Virus record (IMG/VR): IMGVR_UViG_3300008450_000092
Location: 1 to 42,847 of that record
Length of the DNA stretch: 42,847 bases
Direction: 5' to 3' (one strand)
Origin: a virus
Of this stretch, positions 6,701 through 39,249 are shown in pieces. The notes below the pieces were generated by a model. The model saw only the letters and a list, made by a program, of their open reading frames with translations, was not told the origin of the DNA and did not search any database. Position 1 is the first letter of the stretch, and the number at the start of each line of letters is the position of its first letter. Made by a program: the position numbers and the translations under genes.

Positions 6701-8718
6701 ACGATGATGAAATCATGTTGGAATTGGCGATCTCCGGTCAAGCGGGAGCAGCTGGTTCGGCAGGAACATCCGGAGTATCAGGATCTTCTGGAACTTCAGG
6801 CTCTTCAGGTTCTTCTGGGTCGAGCGGACAATCAGGAAGTTCAGGAAGCTCTGGAAGCTCTGGAAGTACGGGAAGCTCAGGATCTTCTGGAATTAGCGGA
6901 AGTTCTGGAACATCAGGATCTTCCGGCTCAACTGGAACATCAGGTTCATCTGGTTCAGCAGGGTCTACCGGAACATCCGGATCGTCAGGATCTGCAGGTA
7001 CAAGCGGTACAAGTGGTACAAGTGGTACAGCGGGAAGCTCGGGTGTTAACGGTGCTTCAACAGGTGCTTGCGGTCTGTGGAACCTCTCATCAAACCAGCC
7101 TCCACTCACAGGTGAGGTAAACACTGTCGTAGGTGGTACAACCACGAATGTTATGTCTACCTCTGTAACTTCTATGAGGGTTTATGAGGTGGATGCTTCA
7201 ACAACTAACTGGGCAACATTCTTTGGTAATCTGACCATTAATTCAACGGTTACCGCAGCAACAGCCAATAATCCGGGTCAAACCTGGACGTTTAGAATTA
7301 CATCGATCGTCGATAGTGGTAACTATTACACATTCGGTGTAACAAATATCAATTCAACTGGTGGGGTATCTCAGATAGGTGGATCAGTTAACCTCTGTTT
7401 CAGTATAGCGGGAAGCTCAGGAACAAGCGGGACATCTGGCTCAAGCGGAACATCTGGCTCAAGCGGAAGTAGCGGAAGTAGCGGAAGCCGTGGTTCTTCA
7501 GGATCATCTGGATCTACCGGTTCTTCCGGATCGACAGGATCATCTGGATCTACCGGTTCAACCGGAACTTCTGGTTCTTCTGGATCAACAGGTTCAACCG
7601 GATCTTCTGGTTCATCAGGATCAAGCGGTATCAGTGGAAGTTCTGGATCATCAGGATCTACCGGTTCAACTGGTTCTTCTGGCTCAAGCGGATCCTCAGG
7701 TAGCAGTGGATTAGAAGGTAATATTGGTATATTCAAATATAGCACCAACACAACAATAGCTGATCCTGGAACAGGTTATTTCAGGCTTGCGAATGCCTGG
7801 TCTAATACGTCTAACCAGAACATGGCTATTGACGATGTTACTTTTGCCCCAGGAGCAAATATCGGGTCCCTTTGGAATTTGATTGCTAGCCAAACCTTAA
7901 TTAATACGGTTCTCAAATTTGTTAAGGTAGGGGATTCAACGATATACAAGTACCTGAGAATTTATGACTTTAACTCCCAGACTGGCTGGGAAGGATTCAC
8001 TGTCGAGGTTATCGCAGTTGGAGGTAGCGCAAGCAATGATGATCAGTTTATGCTCGAAATTGCACTCGCTGGATCTGGCGCAAGCGGAACAGCTGGTTCG
8101 GCTGGATCCTCTGGATCATCCGGATCATCTGGCGTAAGTGGTGCAGCAGGATCTTCTGGATCTTCTGGATCTTCTGGAATCAGCGGATCATCAGGATCAT
8201 CAGGATCATCAGGAAGCTCGGTTTCAGTTTCAGGTACTAACAATAGAGTAGTCAAATTCACCTCTGCAACTACTGTCGGAAATTCTAACGCTTCTGACGA
8301 TGGATCAACATTCCAGATCGATACTTCAAAAATGAAGGTAACAACTTCGATCGCCGTAGGAAACATAACACCTTCAGCAACTGTAGGCCGATTGGATGCT
8401 GCTAATGATGTGGTAGCATTTTCGACTTCTGACATGAGATTGAAAACAAACTTAACTGTTATCGACGATGCATTGGATAAAGTTAATTCCCTAACCGGCT
8501 ATGAATTTGATTGGATTGAAGAATTCAAGGATCACCACGGTTTCGAAGGACACGACGTTGGAATTATTGCTCAAGACGTTGAAGCGGTTTTACCCGAGGT
8601 TGTAACCACCAAATTCAATGGATTCAAGGGCGTGAAATACGACAAGATGGTTCCTCTGCTTATTGAAGCTATTAAGGAATTATCTAGACAGGTTGATGAG
8701 CTAAAAAACCAAAAGTAA
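1..8718 (+). CDS. Giant collagen-like Ser/Thr-rich tail fibre with C-terminal S74 chaperone (5' end outside window)
   Basis: The frame is open from the first base to the TAA at 8716-8718, so the protein starts upstream; at least 2905 residues are visible. The TTG at 709 is internal, because the repeat pattern continues unbroken through it. Most of the chain is Gly-X-Y triplets (GSS, GTS, GST, GSA, GTA) with almost no proline. Folded islands interrupt them: three related domains opening GDRY (709, 2932, 5101), two opening EGN (6358, 7711) and one unique domain (7045-7413). The C-terminus matches the peptidase S74 intramolecular chaperone of phage fibres: SDMRLK, GIIAQDVEAVLPEV and a long terminal helix. 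The Ser-Lys pair five residues apart (window codons 2810 and 2815) is the expected autocleavage dyad. In this family the chaperone drives trimerisation and is then released. It probably forms a long trimeric receptor-binding fibre. Glycosyltransferase genes follow at once. Confidence 0.9.
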   Translation, partial: SGTTGTSGSSGSSGTSGSSGTTGSSGSTGSSGSSGTSGSTGSSGSSGSSGSSGSSGSTGTSGTSGTSASSGSSGSSGSSGTSGATGTSGSSGTSGSSGSSGQSGTSGSAGSTGSSGSSGSTGTSGSSGTGGSSGTSGSSGSSGSSGSTGSSGSTGTSGSSGTTGSSGSSGSSGRDGSSGTSGVSGTSGVSGTSGSSGSSGSTGTSGSSGSTGTSGSSGSTGTSGSSGTSGSAGSSGLNGDRYSTTTTDSITIPTSHPTTITFTVGTGLAYTTGQTVIVANPSSGNKFEATVSSYNPGTGSMTVNSSSNTGTGTYSSWEVNLAGAPGPAGSSGTSGSTGSSGSSGSSGRDGSSGSSGTTGSSGSSGSTGTSGSSGSSGTTGTSGSSGSSGSSGSSGSSGTSGTSGTSGRDGSSGSSGTSGTSGTSGSAGTAGSSGTSGSSGTSGTSGTSGSTGTSGTSGSSGSSGSSGSSGSSGSSGTAGSSGTTGTSGSSGTGGSSGSTGTSGTSGSGGSSGSSGSSGSSGTSGSSGTSGTGGSSGSTGSSGSSGSTGTSGSSGSSGSSGSSGSSGTSGTSGSTGTSGTSGSSGSSGSSGSSGSSGSSGSSGTAGSSGTTGTSGSSGTGGSSGSTGTSGTSGSAGTTGSSGSSGSTGTSGTSGSAGSSGSTGTSGTSGTSGSSGSSGSTGSSGSSGTSGSAGSTGTSGSSGSSGTSGSSGSSGTSGTSGSSGTTGTSGSSGSTGSSGSSGSTGTSGSAGTSGSSGSSGSTGSTGTSGSSGSTGTSGTSGSSGSSGTTGSSGSAGSSGSSGSSGTSGTSGTAGTSGTAGSTGTSGSSGSTGSSGSSGSSGSTGSSGSTGTSGSSGSTGTSGSSGSTGTSGTSGSSGSAGSSGTSGSSGSTGTSGSSGSTGTSGSAGSAGSSGSAGSSGSAGSSGTSGTSGTSGTSGSSGSTGSSGTSGSSGSSGSAGSAGSAGSSGTSGSSGSSGTAGLSGDRYATTSSTSIAIPTSHPTTINLTVGTGLAYTIGQSIIIVSTSGGNIIYATVTSYNASNGAMVVSSTSNSGTGTFNSWQVNLAGATGQSGTSGSSGSTGTSGSSGSSGSSGTSGTSGTSGSSGSTGTSGTSGSSGSSGTSGTSASSGSSGSSGSSGSSGTSGTSGSSGSTGSSGSTGSSGTSGSSGTSGSSGTSGSSGTSGTSGSSGSSGTAGTSGTAGTSGTAGTSGSSGSSGSTGSSGSSGSSGSSGTAGTSGTAGTSGSSGSSGSSGSSGSSGSSGTTGSSGSSGTSGSTGSSGTSGSSGSTGTSGSSGSTGTSGTSGSSGTSGSSGSSGSSGSTGSSGSSGTSGTAGTAGTAGTAGSSGTTGSSGTSGSSGSSGSSGSGGSSGSSGSTGSSGSAGTSGSSGSTGSSGSSGSTGTSGSSGSTGTSGSSGTTGSSGTSGSTGSSGSSGSTGTSGSSGSSGTSGSSGSTGSSGSTGSSGSTGSSGSSGSTGTSGSSGSTGTSGSSGSTGTSGSSGSTGTSGSSGSSGSSGSTGSSGSTGSSGSSGSTGTSGSSGSTGSSGSSGSTGTSGSSGSTGTSGSSGSTGTSGSSGSTGSSGSTGSSGSTGTSGSTGSSGTSGSSGSTGTSGSSGSTGSSGSTGSSGSTGTSGSTGTSGSTGSSGSSGSSGTTGSSGSAGSSGSTGSSGSTGSSGTSGSSGSTGTSGSSGSTGTSGSSGSSGTSGLSGDRYLTSSVTNLTISLGTKTLTVGTGLAYSVNQSVDISYDTNNWMHGEVSSYNSGTGVLVVVITSITGSGTYSSWIVNLAGAVGQAGTSGSSGSTGTSGSSGTTGSSGSTGTSGSSGSTGSTGSSGSSGTSGSSGTTGSSGSTGSSGSTGSSGSTGTSGSTGSSGTSGSSGSTGTSGSSGSTGSSGSTGSSGSTGTSGSTGSSGTSGSSGSTGTSGSSGSTGSSGSTGSSGTSGTSGSSGSTGSSGSSGTTGSSGSTGSSGSSGSSGTSGSTGTSGSTGSSGSTGSSGSSGSSGTSGSTGTSGTSGSTGSTGSSGSSGSSGSSGSTGTSGSSGSTGSTGSSGSSGSTGSTGSSGSAGSSGSTGTSGSSGSSGSTGTSGSSGSTGSSGSTGSSGSSGSSGSTGSSGSSGSTGTSGTSGIEGNVAIYKYSTNTGSGDPGSGYFRFVGQNWTYANSFVINIDDVSFSPGANIGTLWDLLTTGSGSGPLLNTIIKLVKKTDTSIYKYLKIIDASSVSGYGSFTVDVISVSSSSASNDDEIMLELAISGQAGAAGSAGTSGVSGSSGTSGSSGSSGSSGQSGSSGSSGSSGSTGSSGSSGISGSSGTSGSSGSTGTSGSSGSAGSTGTSGSSGSAGTSGTSGTSGTAGSSGVNGASTGACGLWNLSSNQPPLTGEVNTVVGGTTTNVMSTSVTSMRVYEVDASTTNWATFFGNLTINSTVTAATANNPGQTWTFRITSIVDSGNYYTFGVTNINSTGGVSQIGGSVNLCFSIAGSSGTSGTSGSSGTSGSSGSSGSSGSRGSSGSSGSTGSSGSTGSSGSTGSTGTSGSSGSTGSTGSSGSSGSSGISGSSGSSGSTGSTGSSGSSGSSGSSGLEGNIGIFKYSTNTTIADPGTGYFRLANAWSNTSNQNMAIDDVTFAPGANIGSLWNLIASQTLINTVLKFVKVGDSTIYKYLRIYDFNSQTGWEGFTVEVIAVGGSASNDDQFMLEIALAGSGASGTAGSAGSSGSSGSSGVSGAAGSSGSSGSSGISGSSGSSGSSGSSVSVSGTNNRVVKFTSATTVGNSNASDDGSTFQIDTSKMKVTTSIAVGNITPSATVGRLDAANDVVAFSTSDMRLKTNLTVIDDALDKVNSLTGYEFDWIEEFKDHHGFEGHDVGIIAQDVEAVLPEVVTTKFNGFKGVKYDKMVPLLIEAIKELSRQVDELKNQK
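709..978 (+). other. Fibre domain A, copy 1
   Basis: Non-collagenous island of about 90 residues. It starts LNGDRY, has a central VGTGLAY and ends SSWEVNLAGAPG. The beta-rich composition (alternating Thr/Val/Ile) suggests a small beta domain. Copies 2 and 3 lie at 2932 and 5101. I do not recognise a named family. Confidence 0.8.
979..2931 (+). repeat. Gly-X-Y (Ser/Thr) repeat block 2
   Basis: About 650 residues of uninterrupted Gly-X-Y. Two GRDG units occur near 1040 and 1220; the rest is Ser/Thr/Ala/Gly in X and Y. It is open in other frames too, which creates long false ORFs on both strands. Confidence 0.95.
2932..3201 (+). other. Fibre domain A, copy 2
   Basis: Starts LSGDRYATT, keeps IPTSHPTT and VGTGLAY of copy 1, and ends SWQVNLAGATG. 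It is the closest relative of copy 1, so this pair looks like the more recent duplication. Confidence 0.8.
3202..5100 (+). repeat. Gly-X-Y (Ser/Thr) repeat block 3
   Basis: About 630 residues of Gly-X-Y. It contains a near-exact 54-bp tandem duplication (units starting at 4558 and 4612, beginning ggatcctctggctcttcagg), a sign of recent slippage or unequal recombination. Confidence 0.95.
5101..5358 (+). other. Fibre domain A, copy 3
   Basis: Starts LSGDRYLTS, keeps VGTGLAY, and ends SSWIVNLAGAVG. It is shorter and more divergent than copies 1 and 2: the IPTSHPTT segment is missing. Confidence 0.75.
5359..6357 (+). repeat. Gly-X-Y (Ser/Thr) repeat block 4 with nested DNA duplications
   Basis: About 330 residues of Gly-X-Y. 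Two longer DNA duplications are visible: units about 117 bp apart starting at 5581 and 5698, and units 81 bp apart starting at 5860 and 5941. Both preserve the triplet frame. Confidence 0.9.
6358..6738 (+). other. Fibre domain B, copy 1
   Basis: Island of about 127 residues starting IEGNVAIYKYSTNT. It contains PGANIGTLWDLL and ends with NDDEIMLELAISG. It is paired with the copy at 7711. The fold is not recognised; it looks mixed alpha/beta. Confidence 0.8.
6739..7044 (+). repeat. Gly-X-Y repeat block 5
   Basis: About 100 residues of Gly-X-Y between domain B copy 1 and domain C, with a few Val, Ile and Gln substitutions. Confidence 0.9.
7045..7413 (+). other. Fibre domain C (unique)
   Basis: Single-copy island of about 123 residues starting VNGASTGACGLW and ending NLCFSIAG. 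Its two cysteines, near the two ends, are rare in this protein and could bond to each other or bind metal. No family recognised. Confidence 0.7.
7414..7710 (+). repeat. Gly-X-Y repeat block 6
   Basis: About 99 residues of Gly-X-Y between domain C and domain B copy 2, with one GSRG unit near 7490. Confidence 0.9.
7711..8073 (+). other. Fibre domain B, copy 2
   Basis: Starts LEGNIGIFKYSTNT, keeps PGANIGSLWNLI and ends NDDQFMLEIALAG. It aligns along its full length with the copy at 6358. Confidence 0.8.
8220..8718 (+). other. Fibre tip and peptidase S74 chaperone domain
   Basis: A short beta-rich tip segment (VSGTNNRVVKFTS) is followed by the S74 chaperone. The Ser of TSDMRLK (codon at 8428) and the Lys five residues later (codon at 8443) correspond to the known Ser-Lys autocleavage pair. 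The last 25 or so residues form a predicted coiled-coil helix, as in other members. Confidence 0.88.
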
Positions 8719-8733
8719 AGGAACTTCCCCCGT

Positions 8734-8760
8734 GATAGATCCTATAATTTGGGATCTATC
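8734..8760 (+). promoter_or_regulatory. Perfect 9-bp hairpin abutting the start codon of the next gene
   Basis: GATAGATCC (8734-8742) pairs with GGATCTATC (8752-8760) around a 9-nt loop, and the ATG begins at 8761. There is no downstream T-run, so it is not a standard intrinsic terminator. It may control translation of the glycosylation gene or protect the fibre mRNA 3' end. Confidence 0.5.
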
Positions 8761-11700
8761 ATGGAAAAAATCCTTTATATAGCACCTCACTTATCTACTG
8801 GTGGGTTACCCCAATTTCTATTAAAAAAGATAGAGCTTCTGCAGCTCGATTACGAAATTTCCCTCGTTGAATACTCAAATATTACCGGTGGAAAATTCAT
8901 AGTGCAGAGACGCCAACTGGAAGATCTTCTCGGTGAGAATTTCCATTCTCTGGGGGATGATAAAAACCAGATAATAGATCTAATTGAAAGGATTGGACCG
9001 GATATCATCCATTTAGAAGAAATCCCCGAATTTTTTATTCCCGATGAAATAGCGGATAAAATTTACACCAGCGATAGGAAATACAAGATATTCGAAACAT
9101 CGCACGATTCTTCGTACGATACTAGGCTGAAAAGATTTATGCCGGACAAATTTTTGTTTGTGTCGGATTTTCAGAAAAAACAGTATCAGAACCTGAATAT
9201 TCCCTCAGAAGTTGTTGAATACCCGATTGATTACCCTCTCAGGAATCTCAGCAAAGAAAAAGCATGCGTTCATCTAGGACTGGACCCGGATAAAAAGCAC
9301 ATATTGCACGTTGGTTTATTTACGCCCAGAAAGAATCAGAAGGAGTTTTTTGAATATGCAAAAAACCTACCGGAATTCGAGTTTCATTGCGTGGGCAACC
9401 AGGCAGAAAACTTCCAGTATTACTGGGAACCTTTAATGAATGATAGACCTCATAATCTGACCGTTTGGGGAGAAAGATCGGATGTTGATCTTTTTTATCA
9501 GTTTGCCGATTTAATTTTGTTTACATCCAAGGGGAACAGTACAGACAAAGAAACCATGCCTTTGGTTATAAGAGAAGCAATATCTTGGAAAATACCGACT
9601 TTGATCTACGATCTTCCTGTTTACGAGTCTTACTTTGATAACTATCCCAACATCGATTATCTCGAAAATGATTTTGAAATGAATATCAAACGAATTAAAG
9701 AAAAATTCATGGGAACATCCAAGCCGACAAAAGAAGTCAAAAAATGTATCATAGTCGATACTTTTATTACCAGTCCAGATAAGGAAGACCTCCTGATCGA
9801 AAATCTTAAAACTATAAAGCAATTTGGACATGACATTTTTCTAGTTTCACACTCAAAGCTTTCCGCTAAGGTTCTTGATGAAGTTGAATATTTTCTTTTC
9901 GATAAAGACAACACTTTTAACAGTAACCACGTTTACAGCTGGAGAAAAGATGGTGATTTAGAAATTAGAATCAATATCAGAAAAAGCCACGAATGGCCAA
10001 TAATCAGATCCATGAGACTCGCATTCAACACTGCAAAGTCACTTGGATACGAGTACTTTATTTTTACTGAATTTGACCATCACTACTCTGCTTCAGACGT
10101 AGAAAGGGTTCAAAGAATAATTGAAAACAGCATTGAAAATGACAAGGAATTCGTTTTCTGGGCTCCTCAAGAGAAAGTTGATTATGGTGGGTATGGGAAC
10201 GAGACAGGCATATTCTACGAGACTTGTTTCTTTTCTGGCTACCTCGATTCATTCCTGGACGTTTTCGAGTCAAGTTTCCCGAAGACAATAGATGAATATA
10301 ACCAAAATTTTGCTTCCGCCTTCCCAAATTCTTTAGAATTCTGGTTTTGGAAGTATTTTTCCCCTCTAGCAGACAATTCAACGGTTATTCCAAACTACGT
10401 AAAGCTTGATCTTAAAGATTCTGAAATTAACGTGTCTTCCTACCAGAATTTCAAATCGATAATACTGCCTAGCGAAAAATCACATTTCCTATACATAACT
10501 AATGACAATTTCATCGATTATGACTTTGCCGTTTACATCGACGACGAGAAAAAGCATGAGTTCAGTCTAAATAGATTTTATAAACTTATTAAACTTGATA
10601 AGGATTGTAAAATAAGAATAGATTCATTTTCCTCCGGCAAGATGTTTAAATCCGAAACAATAGAGTACAAGAAATCAGAGGCTGAAGAATATAGCAAAAA
10701 CGGTACCATCATATTTAATCAAGGCGAGCACGACATGTTTAATATCTCATTCGAGTCCACAGACAATAAAGTTTATATCGACTATAACGAAGATATAAGA
10801 AGGGAAGTATTAGTCAGTATTAAAGATATTGATTCAAAGGCAACTATTTGGAGCTTTAAAAATGTGGCTGAAAACAAATCTAGATGGTGGTGTGTACCAA
10901 CGCCCAAACATGTTTTGGACTACCAAAATCAGATAAACTTCGGTGGTTTTATAGTTGATATTTTCGAGGACGGGGAAAAAATATATTCTGATTCGATTAG
11001 GATAAAAAAATCTCTTGTATTCAAACCTGAGATGGATGTAACTATCACCGAGCCTATATTTTCAAATTATAACGAATTCTTTGTAGATAAAATATATTCT
11101 CATCTGGATGTTCAATCGTTGGATGTTGTGTTCGACATCGGAGCGAATGTTGGCTTATGGACAGAGTGGATCTTAAGACAGAATGCATCCAAAGTATACT
11201 GCTTTGAGCCCAATAAGGTTGCCTTAGAGGTTCTCAGAAGATTACATGGCGGAAAAGATAACGTTGAGATTATAGATAAAGCTGTGGATTCCGAGGTAAG
11301 AACGATCGAATTCTTCTATTCCGATTCCAATTCATTAATCTCAGCTACTGAGCAGCACGGTGAATTGAATAAAAGTTATGAGGTTACAACAATCACCATT
11401 TCCGACGCGATAGAGAAGTTTGGTGTGGATCATATCGACCTGATTAAAATGGATATCGAGGGAGCTGAATTCAAAATATTCGAAAGCTTAGACGACTCTA
11501 TCTATGAAATCACAGATTCCTTTTTGATAGAATTCCATGCATTCTATTATTCCGATGGAAAGGAGAGGGAAGAAAGAATCATCGAGAAGATGAAGGAGAA
11601 AGGATACTTCGTGGAAAATCATCCCGGTGGGATTTTTGCAACCAAACACAAAAAATGCTTTTATGTAAACAATTCAGCTTTTGCACTCGACGTTCCCGGT

Positions 11701-12405
11701 AAAGGTTCTTTGGAAAAGGTAAACCTATATAATGGTGCGGTTGATTTCAGCTGGGAAAAGCTTGCTCAGAAAAGCTTGATAGGTTATCATCATGCCTATC
11801 ACGAAATGTTCTTCTGTGACGGTCATCCTACCGGATGTGTATACGAGATTGCAGAATGCAAGATTGAACCGGGAGATGTTGTTTTGGACGCTGGAGCTAA
11901 CATTGGTATCTTTACCAATTATGCTTATAGAAGAGGTGCTAAAAAAATATACTCCTTCGAGCCTTGCAGCGAAGCTTTCCAAGCATTGATCATGAATTCC
12001 GGAGAAATAGCAGAAACCTACAAATTAGGCTTATCTTTCGAGCCTGGATCTGAAAAGCTATATTACGAGCAAGGCAATACAATGTCTTCTTCAGTTAAGT
12101 CTGGTGAGGGTGAATTTGAACACATTCTGGTAGAATCAATTGATTCACTGCACAGAAAAAATCTTTTCGACCACCTGGATTTTTTGAAAATTGATGCAGA
12201 GGGATCGGAGATTGATATCATGAATGGTGCGAGAGAAATGCTGGCTGAGCAAAAGATCAAAAAAATCAGCTTTGAATATCACTCCTCACTATTCGACCCC
12301 GAATACATTAATAGGCTCTGCGAAGATATGATATCGTATGGATATCTTTACCGCTGCGAGTGGATTGATGATAACATATCTTTCTATTATTTCTGGTTAG
12401 AATGA
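8761..12405 (+). CDS. Four-domain glycan enzyme: GT4-like, second GT-like, two FkbM methyltransferases
   Basis: I chose the ATG at 8761 rather than the in-frame TTG at 8749, because the TTG lies inside the hairpin and the protein begins well with MEKILYIAPHLSTGG. Residues 1-315 or so resemble a GT4 glycosyltransferase (HVGLFTPRKNQKEF; ETMPLVIREAISWKIP). Residues about 325-540 resemble a GT-A-type domain (CIIVDTFITSP; FIFTEFDHHYS). Two FkbM-type SAM-dependent methyltransferase domains follow: FDIGANVGLWTEW near 790 with KMDIEGAEFKIFE, and LDAGANIGIFTNY near 1040 with KIDAEGSEIDIM. Such fusions build and O-methylate surface or protein-linked glycans. It lies directly downstream of the Ser/Thr-rich fibre and overlaps the next gene by ATGA, so it is probably part of a fibre-modification operon. 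The acceptor is inferred. The linker at about 540-780 is unassigned. Confidence 0.8.
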   Translation: MEKILYIAPHLSTGGLPQFLLKKIELLQLDYEISLVEYSNITGGKFIVQRRQLEDLLGENFHSLGDDKNQIIDLIERIGPDIIHLEEIPEFFIPDEIADKIYTSDRKYKIFETSHDSSYDTRLKRFMPDKFLFVSDFQKKQYQNLNIPSEVVEYPIDYPLRNLSKEKACVHLGLDPDKKHILHVGLFTPRKNQKEFFEYAKNLPEFEFHCVGNQAENFQYYWEPLMNDRPHNLTVWGERSDVDLFYQFADLILFTSKGNSTDKETMPLVIREAISWKIPTLIYDLPVYESYFDNYPNIDYLENDFEMNIKRIKEKFMGTSKPTKEVKKCIIVDTFITSPDKEDLLIENLKTIKQFGHDIFLVSHSKLSAKVLDEVEYFLFDKDNTFNSNHVYSWRKDGDLEIRINIRKSHEWPIIRSMRLAFNTAKSLGYEYFIFTEFDHHYSASDVERVQRIIENSIENDKEFVFWAPQEKVDYGGYGNETGIFYETCFFSGYLDSFLDVFESSFPKTIDEYNQNFASAFPNSLEFWFWKYFSPLADNSTVIPNYVKLDLKDSEINVSSYQNFKSIILPSEKSHFLYITNDNFIDYDFAVYIDDEKKHEFSLNRFYKLIKLDKDCKIRIDSFSSGKMFKSETIEYKKSEAEEYSKNGTIIFNQGEHDMFNISFESTDNKVYIDYNEDIRREVLVSIKDIDSKATIWSFKNVAENKSRWWCVPTPKHVLDYQNQINFGGFIVDIFEDGEKIYSDSIRIKKSLVFKPEMDVTITEPIFSNYNEFFVDKIYSHLDVQSLDVVFDIGANVGLWTEWILRQNASKVYCFEPNKVALEVLRRLHGGKDNVEIIDKAVDSEVRTIEFFYSDSNSLISATEQHGELNKSYEVTTITISDAIEKFGVDHIDLIKMDIEGAEFKIFESLDDSIYEITDSFLIEFHAFYYSDGKEREERIIEKMKEKGYFVENHPGGIFATKHKKCFYVNNSAFALDVPGKGSLEKVNLYNGAVDFSWEKLAQKSLIGYHHAYHEMFFCDGHPTGCVYEIAECKIEPGDVVLDAGANIGIFTNYAYRRGAKKIYSFEPCSEAFQALIMNSGEIAETYKLGLSFEPGSEKLYYEQGNTMSSSVKSGEGEFEHILVESIDSLHRKNLFDHLDFLKIDAEGSEIDIMNGAREMLAEQKIKKISFEYHSSLFDPEYINRLCEDMISYGYLYRCEWIDDNISFYYFWLE

Positions 12406-13259
12406 GATTGATCGCATTTTCCGACGAAAATTTTATTCCGGTTGTTCAGAATCTAGTTTCCTCTCTGGACAAGATCTATCCCCATGCACCCTTAACTTAT
12501 TATATGGTCGGGTTCCATAGAAAGAATTGTTTAAAAAGCGAAAACCTTAAGATCTCTTACAAAACATTCTTCCCCAAATCGGGACTACCAAATTTGAATT
12601 TTCTGAAGCCTAGTATACTCCTGCAATCCCTGACCGATCACGAAGATGATGTTTTCATTTTTCTCGACAGTGACATAACGATAGGAAAAAGATTCAACCC
12701 AGAAAGTATACTTCAGAAAAACCTAGAGTTACCCCTAGCATCATTTGGTCCATATGAACTTCCATATACATTCAGAACATTTGAAGGCGGAAGAACAGAA
12801 ACATACACACCGGATTTATTAATGGATTATTTCGGGATCAGATACAAATCGATGCGATATGTACAGAATTGTCTAATTGCTTATCACAGAAAACATCAAA
12901 ATTTTTTATTGGAATGGGAATCGATTTGCTTAAACAAATATTTGCTTAAAGAGCATTGGAGGTACTTTTCATTTCAGGACGAAACAGCTTTCAATGTGCT
13001 CCTCTGGAAATATTCAGCAACAGAGAATCTTGAACATATATTTGTTAATACACACAAATTTACCACATTTCAATTAATAGAGGAGAGTGAAAATATAGTC
13101 AATGCCAACATCGATGAAAATCCTTATGAATTCTGCGGGGAATCATCTAAAATCATGTTTTATCACGGGACTAAGGATACGAACCAAAATTTAAAAATAC
13201 AGAAATACATTTATGAAAATTATACAGGTAACCCCAGGACTTCTCCCTATACCTCCTAA
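12402..13259 (+). CDS. GT-A-fold glycosyltransferase-like protein
   Basis: 285 residues. The ATG overlaps the previous stop (ATGA), which suggests translational coupling. VFIFLDSDITIG carries a DSD motif at residues 89-91, the usual metal/nucleotide-sugar binding signature of GT-A enzymes. The layout (start RLIAFSDENF, then PLTYYMVGFH, then the DSD near residue 90, then FQDETAFNVLLW) resembles nucleotide-sugar-dependent transferases acting on surface glycans. There is no signal peptide or membrane segment. Its last 47 bases overlap the next gene. Donor and acceptor cannot be read from sequence. Middle member of the putative fibre-glycosylation operon. Confidence 0.7.
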   Translation: MRLIAFSDENFIPVVQNLVSSLDKIYPHAPLTYYMVGFHRKNCLKSENLKISYKTFFPKSGLPNLNFLKPSILLQSLTDHEDDVFIFLDSDITIGKRFNPESILQKNLELPLASFGPYELPYTFRTFEGGRTETYTPDLLMDYFGIRYKSMRYVQNCLIAYHRKHQNFLLEWESICLNKYLLKEHWRYFSFQDETAFNVLLWKYSATENLEHIFVNTHKFTTFQLIEESENIVNANIDENPYEFCGESSKIMFYHGTKDTNQNLKIQKYIYENYTGNPRTSPYTS

Positions 13260-15351
13260 TGGATGGGGAGCGGTTGAAAAAATTATTTGGGAATATCACA
13301 ATCAATCGATCAAGCTTGGCCATGGGTCAGTTATAAAGTATCTAGATGAAGTTAAACCAGGTGAACAAACCATAGTTCATGTGCACGTAGCCAATCTTGC
13401 AATCCTCTGCCACGAAAGAGGCATACCCTATATTTTCACGATGCATGATCACCATGCTCATCTTTATGGGAAGGACTCCCCGGTATACAAAGAGAATAAG
13501 AAAGCACTTAGAAATGCTTTAATTGGATTTGTACCAGCAAAATACCTAGTGAAATATTTTGGATACCCAAACATTGAGTATATGAGCCACGGGGTTAATA
13601 CAAGCTTCTTTTCATGCGAAAGGGATTACACAAACACCCAGCACAGTTTGTTATGCGTAGCAAACAATGGGTACATCCACGATCAGAGCTTTGACAGGAA
13701 GGGATTTTCCTTTGCACTCCAAGCCGCAGAAAAAATGAACCTCCCGATTACAATCTGCGGTCCTAGTAACAATAGATCGTTCTTTGAAAAATATCAGTGC
13801 TCGTACGATAAATTAACCATCAAATATGATCTAACTGAGGATCAGCTGGCGAATGAATATAAAAATCATACCATTTTTATCCACGCGTCAGAATTAGAAG
13901 CTGGCCATCCTAATTTAACTGTTCTCGAAGCAATGTCCTCAGGCTTGGTTGTCTTATCTACTTTAGAAGACGGACAGGATACACCTGGGTTAATTCGAAT
14001 AACTAGAGAATTGGAAGATATTGAGGACAAGATAAAAAATTCAATCAGTGATTTCGAAAACCTTTCTAAGAGATCAAGGGAGTGTGCAACGGAGCTAGAC
14101 TGGTCAAATGTTACCCAAAAATTGATTTCTAGGTACGAATCAATTTCATCGGAAACGATGAAAAAGTCTTTGGTTTATAATTACTCGATGACTCCGATCT
14201 CTTTCCGTGAAAAGAAAGAGCCTCAAAATACTTTCCACTATTCTTTCATAGAAAGCCCAAAATGTGAAATTTTAGGTCCGGTTTCAAAAGAATATCTGGT
14301 TAAATTCGTAGACCACGATACAAACGAGGTTGTCTACGTAAGCTCAATTAAAAACAACTGCTGGGCGGCGGCTTCCAAAAAATACTTTATTAACTGGAGG
14401 ATTGAGGTTTATGACGGGGAGGAAATAGTGGATCAACATGTTTTTGATGCAACGGATAAGAGGGTGTATATCCACATCGATTCTAAAGCTCTCGGAGACA
14501 CGATAGCATGGTTCCCATACGTTGAAGAATTCAGAAAGAAGCACAATTGCAAAATAGTATGTTCAACCTTCTGGAATGATCTTTTCAAAAATTCATATTC
14601 TCACTTCGAATTCACACCTCCCGGATCAACAGCCCATGGATTGTATGCGATGTATTCTGTTGGCTGGTATTATTTTGAAAATGGATCACTAGATTACGAT
14701 AAGAATAAGAGAGACATTAAGAAAATACCGCTGCAGCAAACAGCTACGGATTTTCTTGGATTAGACTTCACAGAAGTCCGACCGATGATAGATCTACCTA
14801 TAGAGAGAAGACATGTTGCTGGTGATTATGCATGTATCGCTCCACACGCTTCGTCCCATGCAAAATATTGGAACAGAAAGGGGGGATGGCAAAAATTGGT
14901 TAATTGGTTCAATGATCAAAAAATACTTCCGGCTATGATCACACACGAGCCTTTGGGTGATGACTGGCATGATTCTAAGCTAGGTGGCAAACTTAAAAAT
15001 GTAGTGGATAGGACTGGGAATTTCCCGATAGAAAACAGGATCAACGAGATCATTCACTCAAAAATTTATGTTGGGCTAAGTTCCGGTCTCAGCTGGTTAG
15101 CTTGGGCTTTAAATAAACCTACTGTTGTCATTTCAGGATTCACTGAAGAATTCCTTGAACCTTCTTCTGTTATCAGAATCATTAATAAAGAGGTCTGTCA
15201 CGGATGTCAAACCGAATTCAAATTAGATGCTGGCGATTGGGAATGGTGCCCTAGAAATAAGGGGACGGAGGATCAATTTATCTGTACTAAGGAAATAAGC
15301 TCCGAATCTGTTATAGATGCTATTGTTAAAAGCGGAGTCCTAGATATATAG
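13213..15351 (+). CDS. GT4 fused to GT9/BAHT-type protein O-heptosyltransferase
   Basis: The ATG at 13213 overlaps the previous gene by 47 bases. It gives a typical GT4 start, MKIIQVTPGLLPIPPNGWG. Residues 1-310 or so are GT4, with the E-x7-E stretch ELEAGHPNLTVLEAMSSG. Residues about 417-712 match the GT9-like O-heptosyltransferases of bacterial autotransporters (Aah/TibC, BAHT family): RVYIHIDSKALGDTIAWFPY, IAPHASSHAKYWNRKGGW, GLSSGLSWLAWAL. Four cysteines (662, 665, 679, 691; C-x2-C then C and C) sit where family members have an iron-binding cysteine motif. Those enzymes transfer heptose to serines of repetitive adhesins, so this is the strongest sign that the cassette modifies a protein rather than lipid. 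The GT4 half may extend the glycan. Ends in LDI-TAG, which also forms a GATATATAG box. Confidence 0.8.
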   Translation: MKIIQVTPGLLPIPPNGWGAVEKIIWEYHNQSIKLGHGSVIKYLDEVKPGEQTIVHVHVANLAILCHERGIPYIFTMHDHHAHLYGKDSPVYKENKKALRNALIGFVPAKYLVKYFGYPNIEYMSHGVNTSFFSCERDYTNTQHSLLCVANNGYIHDQSFDRKGFSFALQAAEKMNLPITICGPSNNRSFFEKYQCSYDKLTIKYDLTEDQLANEYKNHTIFIHASELEAGHPNLTVLEAMSSGLVVLSTLEDGQDTPGLIRITRELEDIEDKIKNSISDFENLSKRSRECATELDWSNVTQKLISRYESISSETMKKSLVYNYSMTPISFREKKEPQNTFHYSFIESPKCEILGPVSKEYLVKFVDHDTNEVVYVSSIKNNCWAAASKKYFINWRIEVYDGEEIVDQHVFDATDKRVYIHIDSKALGDTIAWFPYVEEFRKKHNCKIVCSTFWNDLFKNSYSHFEFTPPGSTAHGLYAMYSVGWYYFENGSLDYDKNKRDIKKIPLQQTATDFLGLDFTEVRPMIDLPIERRHVAGDYACIAPHASSHAKYWNRKGGWQKLVNWFNDQKILPAMITHEPLGDDWHDSKLGGKLKNVVDRTGNFPIENRINEIIHSKIYVGLSSGLSWLAWALNKPTVVISGFTEEFLEPSSVIRIINKEVCHGCQTEFKLDAGDWEWCPRNKGTEDQFICTKEISSESVIDAIVKSGVLDI
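15343..15351 (+). promoter_or_regulatory. GATATATAG box (possible late promoter)
   Basis: The box overlaps the last codons of the glycosyltransferase. Its TATATA starts 17 nt before the ATG at 15362. Chance from coding (Asp-Ile-stop) is possible, so confidence is lower than for the intergenic copies. Confidence 0.35.
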
Positions 15352-30865: not shown

Positions 30866-31474
30866 ATGACAAAAGAAATAAATATACAGAGACTTGCAGA
30901 GAATTTTATTGAAACTAGATCAGAGAGAAATTTCCAGTTATTATTTGAGCGTTTGAAACCAGGCTTGACTAACCATTGCTTCACCATTCTTAAAGATATG
31001 GAGTTAGCCCAGGATTCTTTTTTGAATACGATGTCCAAGATTTGGCAGAAAATTGAGCAGTATGATTCTGAAAGAGGTAACTTCTCTACGTGGTGCTATA
31101 ACATAGCCCGTAACGAATCATTGCTACTTTTAAAATCTAGAAAGAAATTCGTCTCCACCGACGACGAGTCTATGGAATCGTTATACAACTGCCACAATAT
31201 GGCAAATGGCGATTATTATGATGTGTTCGATGATCCTAGTTTGACCTTTATCAATGGCCAGAATAAAATTGACGAGCTCTACGAAAGTATTATCCAGGAG
31301 ATTAGGGAACTTCCTGACCTCTATAAAGATATAATGATAGATCGCGAGATTAATGGAATGAAGTATAAGGATATAGCGGAAAAGTATGACATTAAAAAAA
31401 GATCTATTGCAACACGCATAAGACGAGCTCGTAACAAGATCAAGAAAAAAATAGAAAATTTAAGATCAGAATGA
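30866..31474 (+). CDS. Phage sigma factor, ECF/sigma-70 type with regions 2 and 4
   Basis: 202 residues. Region 2 is seen at about 35-95: DMELAQDSFLNTMSKIW, then YDSERGNFSTWCYNIARNES. Region 4 is at about 140-200: IREIRELPDLYKDIMI-type helix, then the helix-turn-helix GMKYKDIAEKYDIKKRSIAT with the basic RIRRARNKIKKK. It would redirect host RNA polymerase to a phage promoter class. It is different from the gp55-like gene at 38890, which has only region 2. It overlaps the next gene by ATGA. The target sequence cannot be derived; the GATATATA boxes are one candidate. Confidence 0.85.
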   Translation: MTKEINIQRLAENFIETRSERNFQLLFERLKPGLTNHCFTILKDMELAQDSFLNTMSKIWQKIEQYDSERGNFSTWCYNIARNESLLLLKSRKKFVSTDDESMESLYNCHNMANGDYYDVFDDPSLTFINGQNKIDELYESIIQEIRELPDLYKDIMIDREINGMKYKDIAEKYDIKKRSIATRIRRARNKIKKKIENLRSE

Positions 31475-35846: not shown

Positions 35847-38651
35847 ATGAATCTAATCGATAAAATTAAACAACTCAGAGATGTTACTAAATCTCCAGAG
35901 GTAAAAGAAATTTGCGAAAATTTCCTTTCCGGAAATTCGATCCCGGTAAAAGACCACGATATGTTGATGGAATCTGTTAAAGAAATGGAATCACCTGCAC
36001 AGCCACAAGTTTCTTCACAACATGATCTTCTAAGTGCTTTGCGCCAAGGAGAAATCGACAAGTCTAAAGGATTTGCAAGCAAATTAATGGAAAGCTGGGG
36101 CGGTTTGGACCACTCTGGAAGAGCTTACAAACAAGCCGGTGTTTATGGTTCCTATAAGGACGGATTCGATAAGAATAAGAAAGAGGATCAAAAACCTGAA
36201 GAGGTTTTATCATTGCTCGAAAGTCACTCAGAGACTGATGCACACGTTGCTTCTTTATTGGCTTCTCAGAAAACGGAAGATCTCGGTCTTAAAAAGACCT
36301 TGAGAGTTTTCGAAGGTGCTGGTATTTCTGGTCACCCTGCGGTAAAAAGCTTGATGCATAAATATTCATCTCTTTTAGAGCAGAATAGATTGCCCGAGTA
36401 TATCGTTTTGGAATCTTTTGTGAATGAATTCGCAGGCTTTGACTGGGATTCTACAGTAAAGTCTGAATTAGGTAAAATCGCAAAAACAACTAGCTCATTG
36501 AAGAATGAGATTGAAGTTGCAAAAGCAGTATATCACATCAAAGCATCTGACCCAACTAATTTCTATGTAAAGGTAGTTGAGAGCTTGAATTCTTGGTTAA
36601 TCTCTGAAGAGAAATCAGTAGGTTTGTTAACTAAGGATCTTTCAAGATGGCAGTTCAACCCGATCGTTCAGAAGTTGGTACACACTTTGAAAATCAACGA
36701 ATCTGCTGGTGGATTACACCTCACTAAGAAGCAGGGAGAATCTGAAGTTAATAAGATTTACTCTCCTGTTTTAACTAGAGAAGGTAGATTAACTTTCCAA
36801 ATGTCTGGTTCTATCTTTGAAGCTTCTGCTGAAGGAGTTAAAAGATTGAAGAGCTCAGAGATTGAAGCACTTCCTATCGATTACAAGAATTTGTTAGAAA
36901 GCTTCAATAAGGAATTCGTTAAATTGAACGAGACTGGAGTAAATTTCTACATTTCTAAAACAGCTATCAAATTGGTAGAAGCTGAGTCAGCTCCTGCAGT
37001 TTTCATGAACGGTGTTAAACTCCGTTTCAATGACATGAACGAATTGGGCAGAATCTTACACCTTGAATTCTCTTCTATTCCTGGAGTAAATGCAGCGGCT
37101 ATCACAAAGGATGTGATCAACGTTTACGAGTCTTTTGATAAGATCGTAGAATTGGACATCGCCAAAAATATTTCTTCTAGAATTTATGAAGGTTTATCAG
37201 TAAACTTGATCAAGTGGAAGAACCAAGTTTATGTACAGAGAATCAACGAAGGAATGAAAGAAGATTCTTTCTTGAAAACTAGTGGCACACAAGCAATGAA
37301 AATTGTTAAAGATCTTTTGAGATTTGATATCTCTGAAGGTTTAAGCCAATTCTTGGAAGGCGAGAATAAATTGAGAGCAGTTATGGTTAACGACCGTAAC
37401 AAGGTAATCGAAAACATTTCAATTGTAGAAAAAGAAATGAAGAAATTGGAAGCATTAGTTGCTACCAATAAACTTTATGAGTCATCTCCACAAATCAAAG
37501 CAGCTTATGCCCAATTGACCAAAGAATTAGATTCTTTGAAAGAGAAATGGTCTGCTATCAATTCAGAAATGGAGAAATTCGATAATGGATACCAAGAGTT
37601 GGATATGCTCGAAGAAGGAAAATACTCAATCGGAGATTACGTGAGAGTAAAAGAGTCTGGAGATAATGGTAAAGTTATCTCAATTGATTCTTCTTCAGGA
37701 TCATACGTTGTCATGATGAATGACGGCAAAACTGGTGAATATCGTGTAGACGAAATCGAAGATATGGAATCAGCTATCAGCAAAGCTAAAGACGATAACG
37801 AAATTGCAGCTGATGAGGATCCTAACTACGATCCAATGCAGTTGGATGATCAGCCTGAAGAAGTTAAGGAATCTCAAGAAACCTACGCTAAAGCACCAGG
37901 CGAAGCTAAAATGGCTAAAGACGATTCAGCTACCGAAAAAAGAGCTGAAAAATTGATGTCTGATGCTCCAAAGGACGAAGAGGTACAAGATAAAACTTCA
38001 AAGAAAGATGTTGAAAATCAAAAGGTAGCTCAGTTAGCTGATGCTCCTGAAGGATCAGAAAAAGAAACTAAATACGAAGCATCTCCTGAAATTGGATACA
38101 ATTTGAGAGAGGGTGAAGATATTTCTAAAGAAGATCCAAATTTGGCTGAAGCACCTAAATCTTCTTCTCAAGAAAAATCTGGTGAAGAATTCATCGAGAA
38201 TGTTGCTGATCAGAATTTAGCTAAAGCACCTGGTAAAGAAGGTGATATCGGTTATTCAGTAGATAAAGAGAATGGATACAATTTGGATGAAAAGGCTGAA
38301 ATCGCTGGTGATCCTCACTTGGCGGTAGCACCAGACCCAAAAGCTCCTGATATCTTCGGTGTTGAAAAAATCGGCGATCAGAATTTAGCTAAAGCACCTG
38401 GTAAAGAAGGTGACATTGATTATTCAACAGATAAAGAAAGTGGATACAATTTAGATGAAAAAGCTGAGATTGCTGGTGATTCTAATATGGCGGTAGCTCC
38501 AGAAGCTAAGGCTGGAAGCGAATCTGCTCCTGAAAAAGTAGGAGATCAGAATTTGGCTGAAGCACCTGGTAAAGAAGGAGACATCGATTATTCAGTAGAT
38601 AAAGAAAACGGTTATAACCTTGACGAATCTGACGAGGTAAAAAAAAACTAA
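35847..38651 (+). CDS. 934-residue repeat-tailed protein, probably virion; ends at an A9 slippery site
   Basis: In the zero frame the protein stops right after AAAAAAC-TAA. Residues 1-590 or so are helical and charged (SLLESHSETDAHVASLLASQ; YSSLLEQNRLPEYIVLESF). A KOW/SH3-like segment follows at about 592-640 (GDYVRVKESGDNGKVIS, GKTGEYRVDEIED). The C-terminal 250 residues are acidic and repetitive: a unit of about 55 residues built on DQNLAKAPGKEGD and ENGYNLDEKAEIAG occurs three times, plus weaker xAxAP units before. Doublet late-promoter boxes suggest high late expression, so an internal head or scaffold-type protein is plausible. The repeat theme continues after the stop in the -1 frame (see 38639-38809). 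No family recognised. Confidence 0.75.
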   Translation: MNLIDKIKQLRDVTKSPEVKEICENFLSGNSIPVKDHDMLMESVKEMESPAQPQVSSQHDLLSALRQGEIDKSKGFASKLMESWGGLDHSGRAYKQAGVYGSYKDGFDKNKKEDQKPEEVLSLLESHSETDAHVASLLASQKTEDLGLKKTLRVFEGAGISGHPAVKSLMHKYSSLLEQNRLPEYIVLESFVNEFAGFDWDSTVKSELGKIAKTTSSLKNEIEVAKAVYHIKASDPTNFYVKVVESLNSWLISEEKSVGLLTKDLSRWQFNPIVQKLVHTLKINESAGGLHLTKKQGESEVNKIYSPVLTREGRLTFQMSGSIFEASAEGVKRLKSSEIEALPIDYKNLLESFNKEFVKLNETGVNFYISKTAIKLVEAESAPAVFMNGVKLRFNDMNELGRILHLEFSSIPGVNAAAITKDVINVYESFDKIVELDIAKNISSRIYEGLSVNLIKWKNQVYVQRINEGMKEDSFLKTSGTQAMKIVKDLLRFDISEGLSQFLEGENKLRAVMVNDRNKVIENISIVEKEMKKLEALVATNKLYESSPQIKAAYAQLTKELDSLKEKWSAINSEMEKFDNGYQELDMLEEGKYSIGDYVRVKESGDNGKVISIDSSSGSYVVMMNDGKTGEYRVDEIEDMESAISKAKDDNEIAADEDPNYDPMQLDDQPEEVKESQETYAKAPGEAKMAKDDSATEKRAEKLMSDAPKDEEVQDKTSKKDVENQKVAQLADAPEGSEKETKYEASPEIGYNLREGEDISKEDPNLAEAPKSSSQEKSGEEFIENVADQNLAKAPGKEGDIGYSVDKENGYNLDEKAEIAGDPHLAVAPDPKAPDIFGVEKIGDQNLAKAPGKEGDIDYSTDKESGYNLDEKAEIAGDSNMAVAPEAKAGSESAPEKVGDQNLAEAPGKEGDIDYSVDKENGYNLDESDEVKKN
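38212..38632 (+). repeat. Three tandem protein repeats of about 55 residues
   Basis: Units begin DQNLAKAPGKEGDIGYS, DQNLAKAPGKEGDIDYS and DQNLAEAPGKEGDIDYS. Each is followed by DKE-x-GYNLDE. The DNA is similar too, which suggests recent duplication. Confidence 0.88.
38639..38648 (+). promoter_or_regulatory. Candidate -1 frameshift or slippage site (A9 run with A-AAA-AAC)
   Basis: A run of nine A (38639-38647) then C. In frame it reads AAA-AAA-AAC-TAA, so the canonical heptamer A-AAA-AAC (38642-38648) sits directly before the stop at 38649. A -1 shift, or loss of one A by polymerase slippage, opens the frame to 38809. Confidence 0.6.
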
Positions 38652-38809
38652 ACCGTAACTTCGCATCTGCTCCTACAAACCCAGATCAGAATAAAAGTCC
38701 ACAGCCTGACGTAGAAGATATCACAGGAAAATTTGCCAAAGCACCAGACGGGAAACCTAGAGTTGGTGTAATAGGTCAAGATTTAGGCGTTGATAATTCT
38801 AAAGACTGA
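38648..38809 (+). CDS. -1 frame C-terminal extension of the 934-residue protein
   Basis: After a -1 shift at the A run the reading continues LNRNFASAPTNPDQN and later ITGKFAKAPDGKPRVG, ending VDNSKD at TGA 38807-38809. The FASAP and FAKAP units continue the xAxAP theme of the upstream repeats, so this is the natural C-terminus, about 53 residues more. It has no start codon of its own, and the terminator comes 28 bases after its stop. A sequencing error in the A run would give the same picture. Confidence 0.6.
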   Translation, partial: LNRNFASAPTNPDQNKSPQPDVEDITGKFAKAPDGKPRVGVIGQDLGVDNSKD

Positions 38810-38836
38810 AACTTAGAAAAATTTTAAACTATAAGG

Positions 38837-38870
38837 ATTGTCCGGTTCAAAAAAAGCCGGACAATTCTTT
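38837..38870 (+). terminator. Intrinsic terminator
   Basis: 9-bp stem ATTGTCCGG/CCGGACAAT (38837-38845 with 38857-38865), an 11-nt A-rich loop, then TCTTTT. It ends the transcript of the repeat-tailed gene. Confidence 0.85.
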
Positions 38871-38889: not shown

Positions 38890-39249
38890 ATGGCCAAAAT
38901 CTACGTCAAAAATTCGGATCTTATGAGAGCAATCAAAGAATCCAAAGAAAAAGGCCATCTGACAAACGAGACAATTTCCATGTTTCTTCTTATGACGGAT
39001 GGTATATCAAAAAAGATGGCTTATAAAGACGAGGAGGACAAGCAAGACTGCATCGCTTTCGCATTGGAAGACCTTTGTAAATATTGGGACCGATTCGATC
39101 CTAATAAGTCAAACAACCCATTCGCATATTTTACCCAGATCGCCAAAAACGGTTTTGCTAAGGGCTGGAAAAAGATTCACCCACCCAATGCTCCCAAAAC
39201 CATACCATTCAGTTCTATCACTGGCGACGAAAACACCTATAATGTATAA
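38890..39249 (+). CDS. gp55: T4 gp55-like late sigma factor
   Basis: 119 residues. It follows the T4 gp55 pattern: KNSDLMRAIKESKE (gp55 NNKELLQAIIDWK), TNETISMFLLMTDGISKKMA (gp55 [20 protein letters not shown]), DCIAFALEDLCKYWDRFDP (gp55 EMIADGIEASIKGLHNFDE), NNPFAYFTQIAKNGFAKGWK (gp55 [20 protein letters not shown]). In T4, gp55 carries a region-2-like core and reads only the -10 TATAAATA, helped by the gp33 co-activator and the gp45 clamp. This copy is shorter (gp55 185 residues) and lacks most of the C-terminal tail, where the clamp-binding motif lies. It is the best candidate reader of the GATATATA boxes in this window. Confidence 0.75.
   Translation: MAKIYVKNSDLMRAIKESKEKGHLTNETISMFLLMTDGISKKMAYKDEEDKQDCIAFALEDLCKYWDRFDPNKSNNPFAYFTQIAKNGFAKGWKKIHPPNAPKTIPFSSITGDENTYNV

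Follow-up and report, generated by a model that had tools for sequence, protein, structure and literature searches.

Several phages obtain two products from one gene by a slip of the reading frame. In most known cases the shift is ribosomal and the gene encodes a tail or capsid protein. In gene 10A/10B of phages T7 and T3 and in head and tail genes of Lactobacillus phage A2 and Listeria phage PSA, a late shift extends the C-terminus of a share of the protein (PMC5009743). Lambda likewise makes its tail assembly chaperones gpG and gpGT by a -1 shift close to the gene's end. A second route is transcriptional slippage. In the dnaX gene of Thermus thermophilus, in transposases of insertion sequences from Deinococcus and others, and in Shigella mxiE and spa13, slippage occurs on A9 or T9 (PMC5009743, PMC1088944, PMC3711429, as far as the available excerpts go). 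Nine As is a length that allows efficient in vivo slippage by the RNA polymerase of bacteria (PMC5009743), and a run of nine kept among homologs is the published sign of purposeful slippage (PMC1088944). For a phage gene, the portion available of one report proposes slippage on poly-A in a methyltransferase of Campylobacter phage CPt10 (PMC2853527).

Here we describe nine consecutive As that stand just before the stop of a gene for a 934-residue protein, beside a late sigma factor gene. The window, that is the whole stretch of DNA analysed (42,847 bases of an IMG/VR virus record), comes from a T4-like phage. Comparison with related contigs strongly supports two C-terminal forms of this protein, produced through a programmed shift on the A-run. 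The features at the site are the following.

35847..38651, + strand: main ORF in its short form, 934 aa, TAA stop included (sequence reading).
38639..38647, + strand: putative slippery tract, nine As (sequence reading, relatives, tree).
38649..38651, + strand: TAA stop of the short form, immediately 3' of AAC (TAA in 57 of 58 distinct junctions, TGA in one).
38648..38809, + strand: extension of the C-terminus, read in the -1 frame, with 53 codons and a stop (homology, third-position bias).
38833..38869, + strand: terminator-like hairpin 3' of the extension (-20.8 kcal/mol, z -6.0).
38890..39249, + strand: next gene, T4 gp55-like late sigma factor (phrog_234, E 1e-17).

The last codons of the 934-aa frame are GAG GTA AAA AAA AAC TAA, and the A-run counts exactly nine. 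After the run, the -1 frame reads KKK-LNRNFASAPTNPDQN...FAKAPDGK...SKD (starting LNRNFASAP) and stops at 38807-38809. The long form has 987 aa. The first-pass annotation had described a zero frame ending AAA-AAA-AAC-TAA, a -1 frame open for about 53 residues past the run and a stop shortly before an intrinsic terminator. All three hold on reading; the hairpin is absent from a simple terminator scan and its z value comes from a separate folding analysis. The same annotation had taken A8 to give one continuous ORF, and hence to speak against a shift. This is incorrect: A8 leads to another quick stop, and the frames are joined by A10 (one extra A) or A7 (two fewer). An A9 run is not unusual per se, because one is seen on the + strand of the window and 1.36 are expected from a first-order Markov model. 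The evidence lies in its position and conservation.

Relatives were gathered in two scans. The first, with the downstream sigma factor as query, supplied the best 80 of 235 relatives: 75 have the -1-frame extension at A9 or A10, three have it as a separate ORF and two end early. The second, with the stand-alone extension as query, supplied 29 contigs, namely the three separate-ORF cases again (L081, L084 and L085) and 26 in which A9-CTAA is accompanied by the -1 extension. Four repeats (L174, the same as L047, and L162-L164, the same as L081/L084/L085) were dropped from the contig counts, leaving 105 contigs, or 106 with the window. Among these 106 IMG/VR contigs (window and best 80 of 235 relatives included), 101 show A9 or A10 at the stop followed by a homologous -1-frame extension. 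The remaining five are L081, L084 and L085, which belong to one lineage, and L017 and L036, which end 5' of the site. The main proteins of the relatives are about 36-100% identical to that of the window.

A9 or A10 is present in 41 of 41 distinct junctions and in 26 of 26 of L165-L190. A run of at least nine As stands at the site in each of 59 representatives (556 kb). Elsewhere in these 556 kb there are 13 such runs on either strand, three of them within ORFs of at least 100 aa. This distribution indicates that the association of the run with the site is not chance. L165-L171 have a further A9 in common, some 2.2-2.65 kb 5' of this site, just before an ATGG start context and outside ORFs of at least 100 aa.

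Homopolymers are the usual spot for errors, and the split frame might be read as a sequencing or assembly error or as a decaying gene end. The comparison of contigs already contradicts this reading, to which we assign a negligible probability. Two near relatives (DNA 98.8% and 99.7% identical, with 97 and 11 differences from the window) likewise have A9, the former in an independent contig whose 97 other differences are spread over 9.3 kb, and the arrangement recurs in 101 of the 106 contigs (best 80 of 235 relatives included). In addition, the extension, about 50-60 residues long in this group, behaves as a protein. In 15 pairs, some with a common member, its differences at codon positions 1, 2 and 3 of the -1 frame amount to 84, 56 and 252, which indicates that it is under protein-level selection in that frame.

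Phase variation would be another way to two forms. The length of the A-run would shift in replication, and some virions would have A10 and encode the long protein only. According to the available part of PMC1088944, A9 runs are prone to replication slippage, and both A9 and A10 do occur at the site, with at least two length changes between them on the tree. Nevertheless, an in-frame fusion of main ORF and extension is found in none of the 106 contigs (0 of 99 in a dedicated count, which excludes L006 and L007, the same contigs as L005/L004 and part of the 101), and in contigs with A10 the neighbouring sequence retains the same -1 relation. Phase variation is thus very unlikely. Translation of the extension as a separate small protein, by re-initiation after the stop, finds a parallel in L081/L084/L085, where the extension is an ORF with its own ATG. 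It is even less probable than phase variation, because the -1 frame of the window has neither ATG nor GTG nor TTG. The open frame lacks a start codon in 49 of the 99 contigs. In the other 50, no start precedes codon 29, counted from where the run begins, and the conserved first motif comes before all of them.

The extension resembles the region that precedes it.

37827..38648, + strand: acidic low-complexity tail, net charge -37, with nine copies of hydrophobic-[AS]-x-A-P (motif count).
38660..38674, + strand: extension motif 1, FASAP (FYFAP or WSFAP in most relatives; alignment, motif count).
38732..38746, + strand: extension motif 2, FAKAP (LSKAP or MSVAP in relatives; alignment, motif count).

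Against the nine copies in the tail, 2000 shuffles average 0.08 and never exceed 3. The extension contributes two further hydrophobic-x-x-A-P motifs. When a profile of the extensions is used as query, it also hits the repeats in the tails of these proteins (for L088, E 3e-8). The echo between FASAP/FAKAP and the upstream repeats, noticed on first reading, is therefore borne out. The T4-type protease site is LxE/A. The tail motif was considered as such a site and rejected: the position before A-P can hold any of E, K, V, S, T and D.

The nature of the shift was addressed with a tree of 59 distinct core proteins, restricted to loci with a main frame of at least 600 residues. The codon 5' of AAA AAA underwent at least 13 changes on this tree, at least nine of them changing the amino acid (V, S, L, Q, E). 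Its wobble base is A throughout, with no change. For comparison, the third bases of the eight codons preceding it changed 8-15 times each. No base of either AAA codon changed, an invariance that could partly reflect protein constraint on the two lysines. The base 3' of the run changed at least six times and is C in 31, T in 18 and G in 9 of 58 junctions. The invariant block is thus exactly nine As, three more than the six required by the heptamer A_AAA_AAN. Because the wobble A is invariant while the base 3' of the run varies, selection acts on the nine-A tract and not on the heptamer. Directly 3' of the stop, synonymous change is unrestricted.

In -1 programmed ribosomal frameshifting, the tRNAs of the P and A sites would re-pair one base back on A_AAA_AAN and translation would enter the extension. 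This mechanism has precedents among phage structural genes (in the excerpt at hand of PMC5009743). Conservation of the heptamer, which the first-pass annotation had suggested checking, is nearly complete at the level of A_AAA_AAN: it is found at the overlap in 58 of 58 distinct junctions (L067 and L073, with A10 GCT TAA, were omitted from this profile), with a stop codon immediately 3' in all 58. The direction of the shift is identical in every contig with the site. One shared direction was taken by Antonov et al. as a sign of ribosomal frameshifting (available portion of PMC3711429); single descent would also account for it. Stable RNA is predicted 3' of the site in some subclades (z -4.4 in L022, -4.7 in L063, and -3.3 in both L071 and L055).

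Other observations speak against a ribosomal shift. In 49 of the 58 distinct junctions, the window among them, AAC or AAT occupies the A site. By a rule measured in E. coli only, an efficient A-site codon of the AA-N type would have a purine as N; in that species A_AAA_AAC is inefficient, and the ZZN triplet needs to consist of purines only or of pyrimidines only (PMC4066793). The three As outside the heptamer are invariant, including the wobble base of V, S, L, Q and E codons. Pseudoknot-free folding gave no clear sign of a conserved RNA structure downstream (z -0.2 in the window; mean z -0.98, with 9 of 41 below -2). We consider ribosomal frameshifting rather unlikely, though a more serious candidate than the readings discussed above.

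Two properties are expected of a slippage site, a run of about nine A or T conserved beyond coding need and a conserved extension in the shifted frame. Both are observed here, the former as the unchanged wobble A. Transcriptional slippage is favoured over -1 ribosomal frameshifting because the nine-A tract is selected and pseudoknot-free folding gives no clear sign of a conserved downstream structure. Overall, the locus is probably a programmed slip site by which one phage gene yields two products through transcriptional slippage, a mechanism that we rate as clearly more probable than its alternatives on comparative grounds. Apparently, the A-run has been retained over long evolutionary time for a one-base slip. 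In the first-pass annotation, a programmed -1 frameshift or slippage was proposed to yield two C-terminal forms. The two forms stand as a well-supported reading; the emphasis on the heptamer does not, given AAC or AAT in 49 of 58 junctions and three extra invariant As.

According to this slippage model, the RNA polymerase would slip on A9 during transcription, and a fraction of the mRNA would have A10. Messengers with A9 would direct synthesis of the short form, ending KKN (or KKK). Those with A10 would direct synthesis of the long form, with its two added hydrophobic-x-x-A-P motifs. The ratio of the forms would be set by the slip frequency of the polymerase.

The 934-aa gene sits between small uncharacterised ORFs and the late sigma factor gene. 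Further 3' are genes for a head closure protein and the portal (Portal_T4, E 3.6e-61). The nearest match of the portal is in LR756500, an uncultured 462-kb phage (45% identity), followed by other huge phages and the Prevotella Lak phages. The hosts are probably Bacteroidota. Adjacency to the late sigma factor gene is kept in most relatives. In one clade (L022:3094-4908, L024:3932-4905), the extension is separated from the sigma gene by two or three additional genes. Several of these begin with leaders (MRIKSYLEFINEA and MKNVRSFEDFLLEG are examples) similar to those of T4 internal proteins. In addition to the late sigma factor gene at 38890, the window contains a second sigma-factor-like gene at 30866-31474 (Sigma70_r2 and r4_2). 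At 709-8718, an ORF of 2669 aa consists mainly of SSG/TSG repeats; its C-terminal stretch presumably resembles the end of a tail-fibre chaperone. Adjoining this repeat protein, at 8749-15351, are large ORFs that resemble glycosyltransferases and methyltransferases on reading of the sequence.

Two segments of the 934-aa protein stand out in the AlphaFold model.

37332..37586, + strand: predicted long helical (coiled-coil-like) segment, residues 496-580 (AlphaFold, mean pLDDT 76).
37614..37787, + strand: predicted SH3/Tudor/KOW-like domain, residues 590-647 (AlphaFold, Pfam, structure comparison).

In the model (37-sequence alignment, pLDDT 76, pTM 0.44), the N-terminal part is helical, and a beta part, long helices and the SH3/Tudor/KOW-like domain are also predicted. 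The latter, a small common fold, superimposes on a Tudor domain with Z 8.7 and an rmsd of 2.1 for 57 aligned residues. PHROG gave no match to the protein, and Pfam one weak, sub-threshold MSSS/SH3 match. Among 50,697 phage records, tblastn picked up a single relative, LR756500; with a more distant family member as query, Tenacibaculum phages PTm1 and PTm5 were also found. Foldseek returned no match from the PDB at E <=0.001. At the same threshold, a viral structure library gave eight matches, seven of them uncharacterised phage proteins; a protein of Tenacibaculum phage PTm1 is among the matches. The VIA-align alignments fall for the most part on the coiled coil and on the SH3/Tudor/KOW-like domain. 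The DNA ligase label of the eighth match, from phage pT24, is distrusted (TM 0.17/0.13). Since the PTm1 relative adjoins DNA polymerase genes, a role in the virion should not be assumed. The abundant late protein of the first-pass annotation is a conjecture, given the lack of a PHROG match and the essentially uncharacterised fold matches. A literature search on PTm1 yielded nothing useful.

More distant homologs (L128:2526-4541 and L193-L233, hereafter group B), about 18-20% identical to the window protein, have an A9 within the coding sequence (ACA GAA AAA AAA AGT CGT AAC, the VTEKKSRN site), which falls after the long helices and before the last domain. One extra A would give EKKKS and a stop (EKKKP and a stop in one variant), hence a shorter protein without the last domain. 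The direction of the shift is one within the group of the window; at this candidate site the extra A would shorten the protein. Close relatives keep the run in all of their 15 distinct junctions, and L233 (54% identical) also has it, an extra A leading there to EKKN and a stop. This evidence is only suggestive, because EKK is also kept at the protein level and the whole region shows little synonymous change. If used, the group B run would be the same device with the opposite default, long by default and short after a slip. If group B also slips, slippage would predate the split of the two branches or have arisen twice.

In the lineage of L081 (4662-4886), L084 and L085, the main frame stops earlier and the A9 is still present. 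The freed extension is a 74-aa ORF that begins with the leader MSSNKILDFFSYINEE, the letters of which we take to resemble those of a T4 capsid targeting leader. It fits a loose leader pattern, set after such leaders had been seen, as do 21 of 579 N-termini (1, 9, 0 and 0 in internal controls). T4-type capsid targeting leaders are propeptides of 10-19 residues cleaved off by the prohead protease (PMC9026906, available sections). Because the leader is capsid-targeting-like, the extension may act in the head; these are hints, a lead rather than a finding. Tentatively, a broader scenario can be drawn, which as a whole we regard as possible but doubtful. Throughout a family of T4-like huge phages, slippage of the RNA polymerase on a locked A9, without a ribosomal signal, would govern how much is made of each C-terminal form of a conserved protein whose gene adjoins that of the late sigma factor. 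A distant branch would use the reversed arrangement, and the head-targeting-like leader of the freed extension would suggest action inside the prohead.

In the literature covered, to which most subscription papers and preprints do not belong, no published report of this site was found. The terms frameshift, slippage and recoding are absent from a 2026 review on jumbo phages (PMC13282480). Gene callers will truncate the extension in every genome of the group, and proteomics against such databases will miss it. In the phage of the window, NFASAPTNPDQNK is an example of a tryptic peptide of the extension.

The comparison with known systems can now be made. As in Thermus dnaX, the insertion sequence transposases and Shigella mxiE/spa13, a run of about nine As is kept across homologs and the shifted frame would give an alternative C-terminus (PMC5009743, PMC1088944, PMC3711429, in the parts available). 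Here, by contrast, the gene belongs to a dsDNA phage, its product is uncharacterised and slippage is the proposed mechanism. As in T7/T3, A2 and PSA, a late shift would extend the C-terminus of a share of the protein. Those phages use a ribosomal frameshift at other slip sites, and their products are proven virion parts, whereas the present protein is a candidate only; its extension consists of motif repeats and not of an Ig-like domain. In its position, close to where the gene ends, the -1 shift recalls lambda gpG/gpGT. Unlike the lambda gene, this one lies between small ORFs and a late sigma factor gene, and searches gave no link to chaperones. CPt10 concerns, in the excerpt available, a single frame-shifted gene, possibly rescued, whereas a conserved two-product site is seen here. 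With an invariant block of nine As, the conserved A9 is a clean candidate, open to direct testing, for programmed slippage during transcription in a dsDNA phage.
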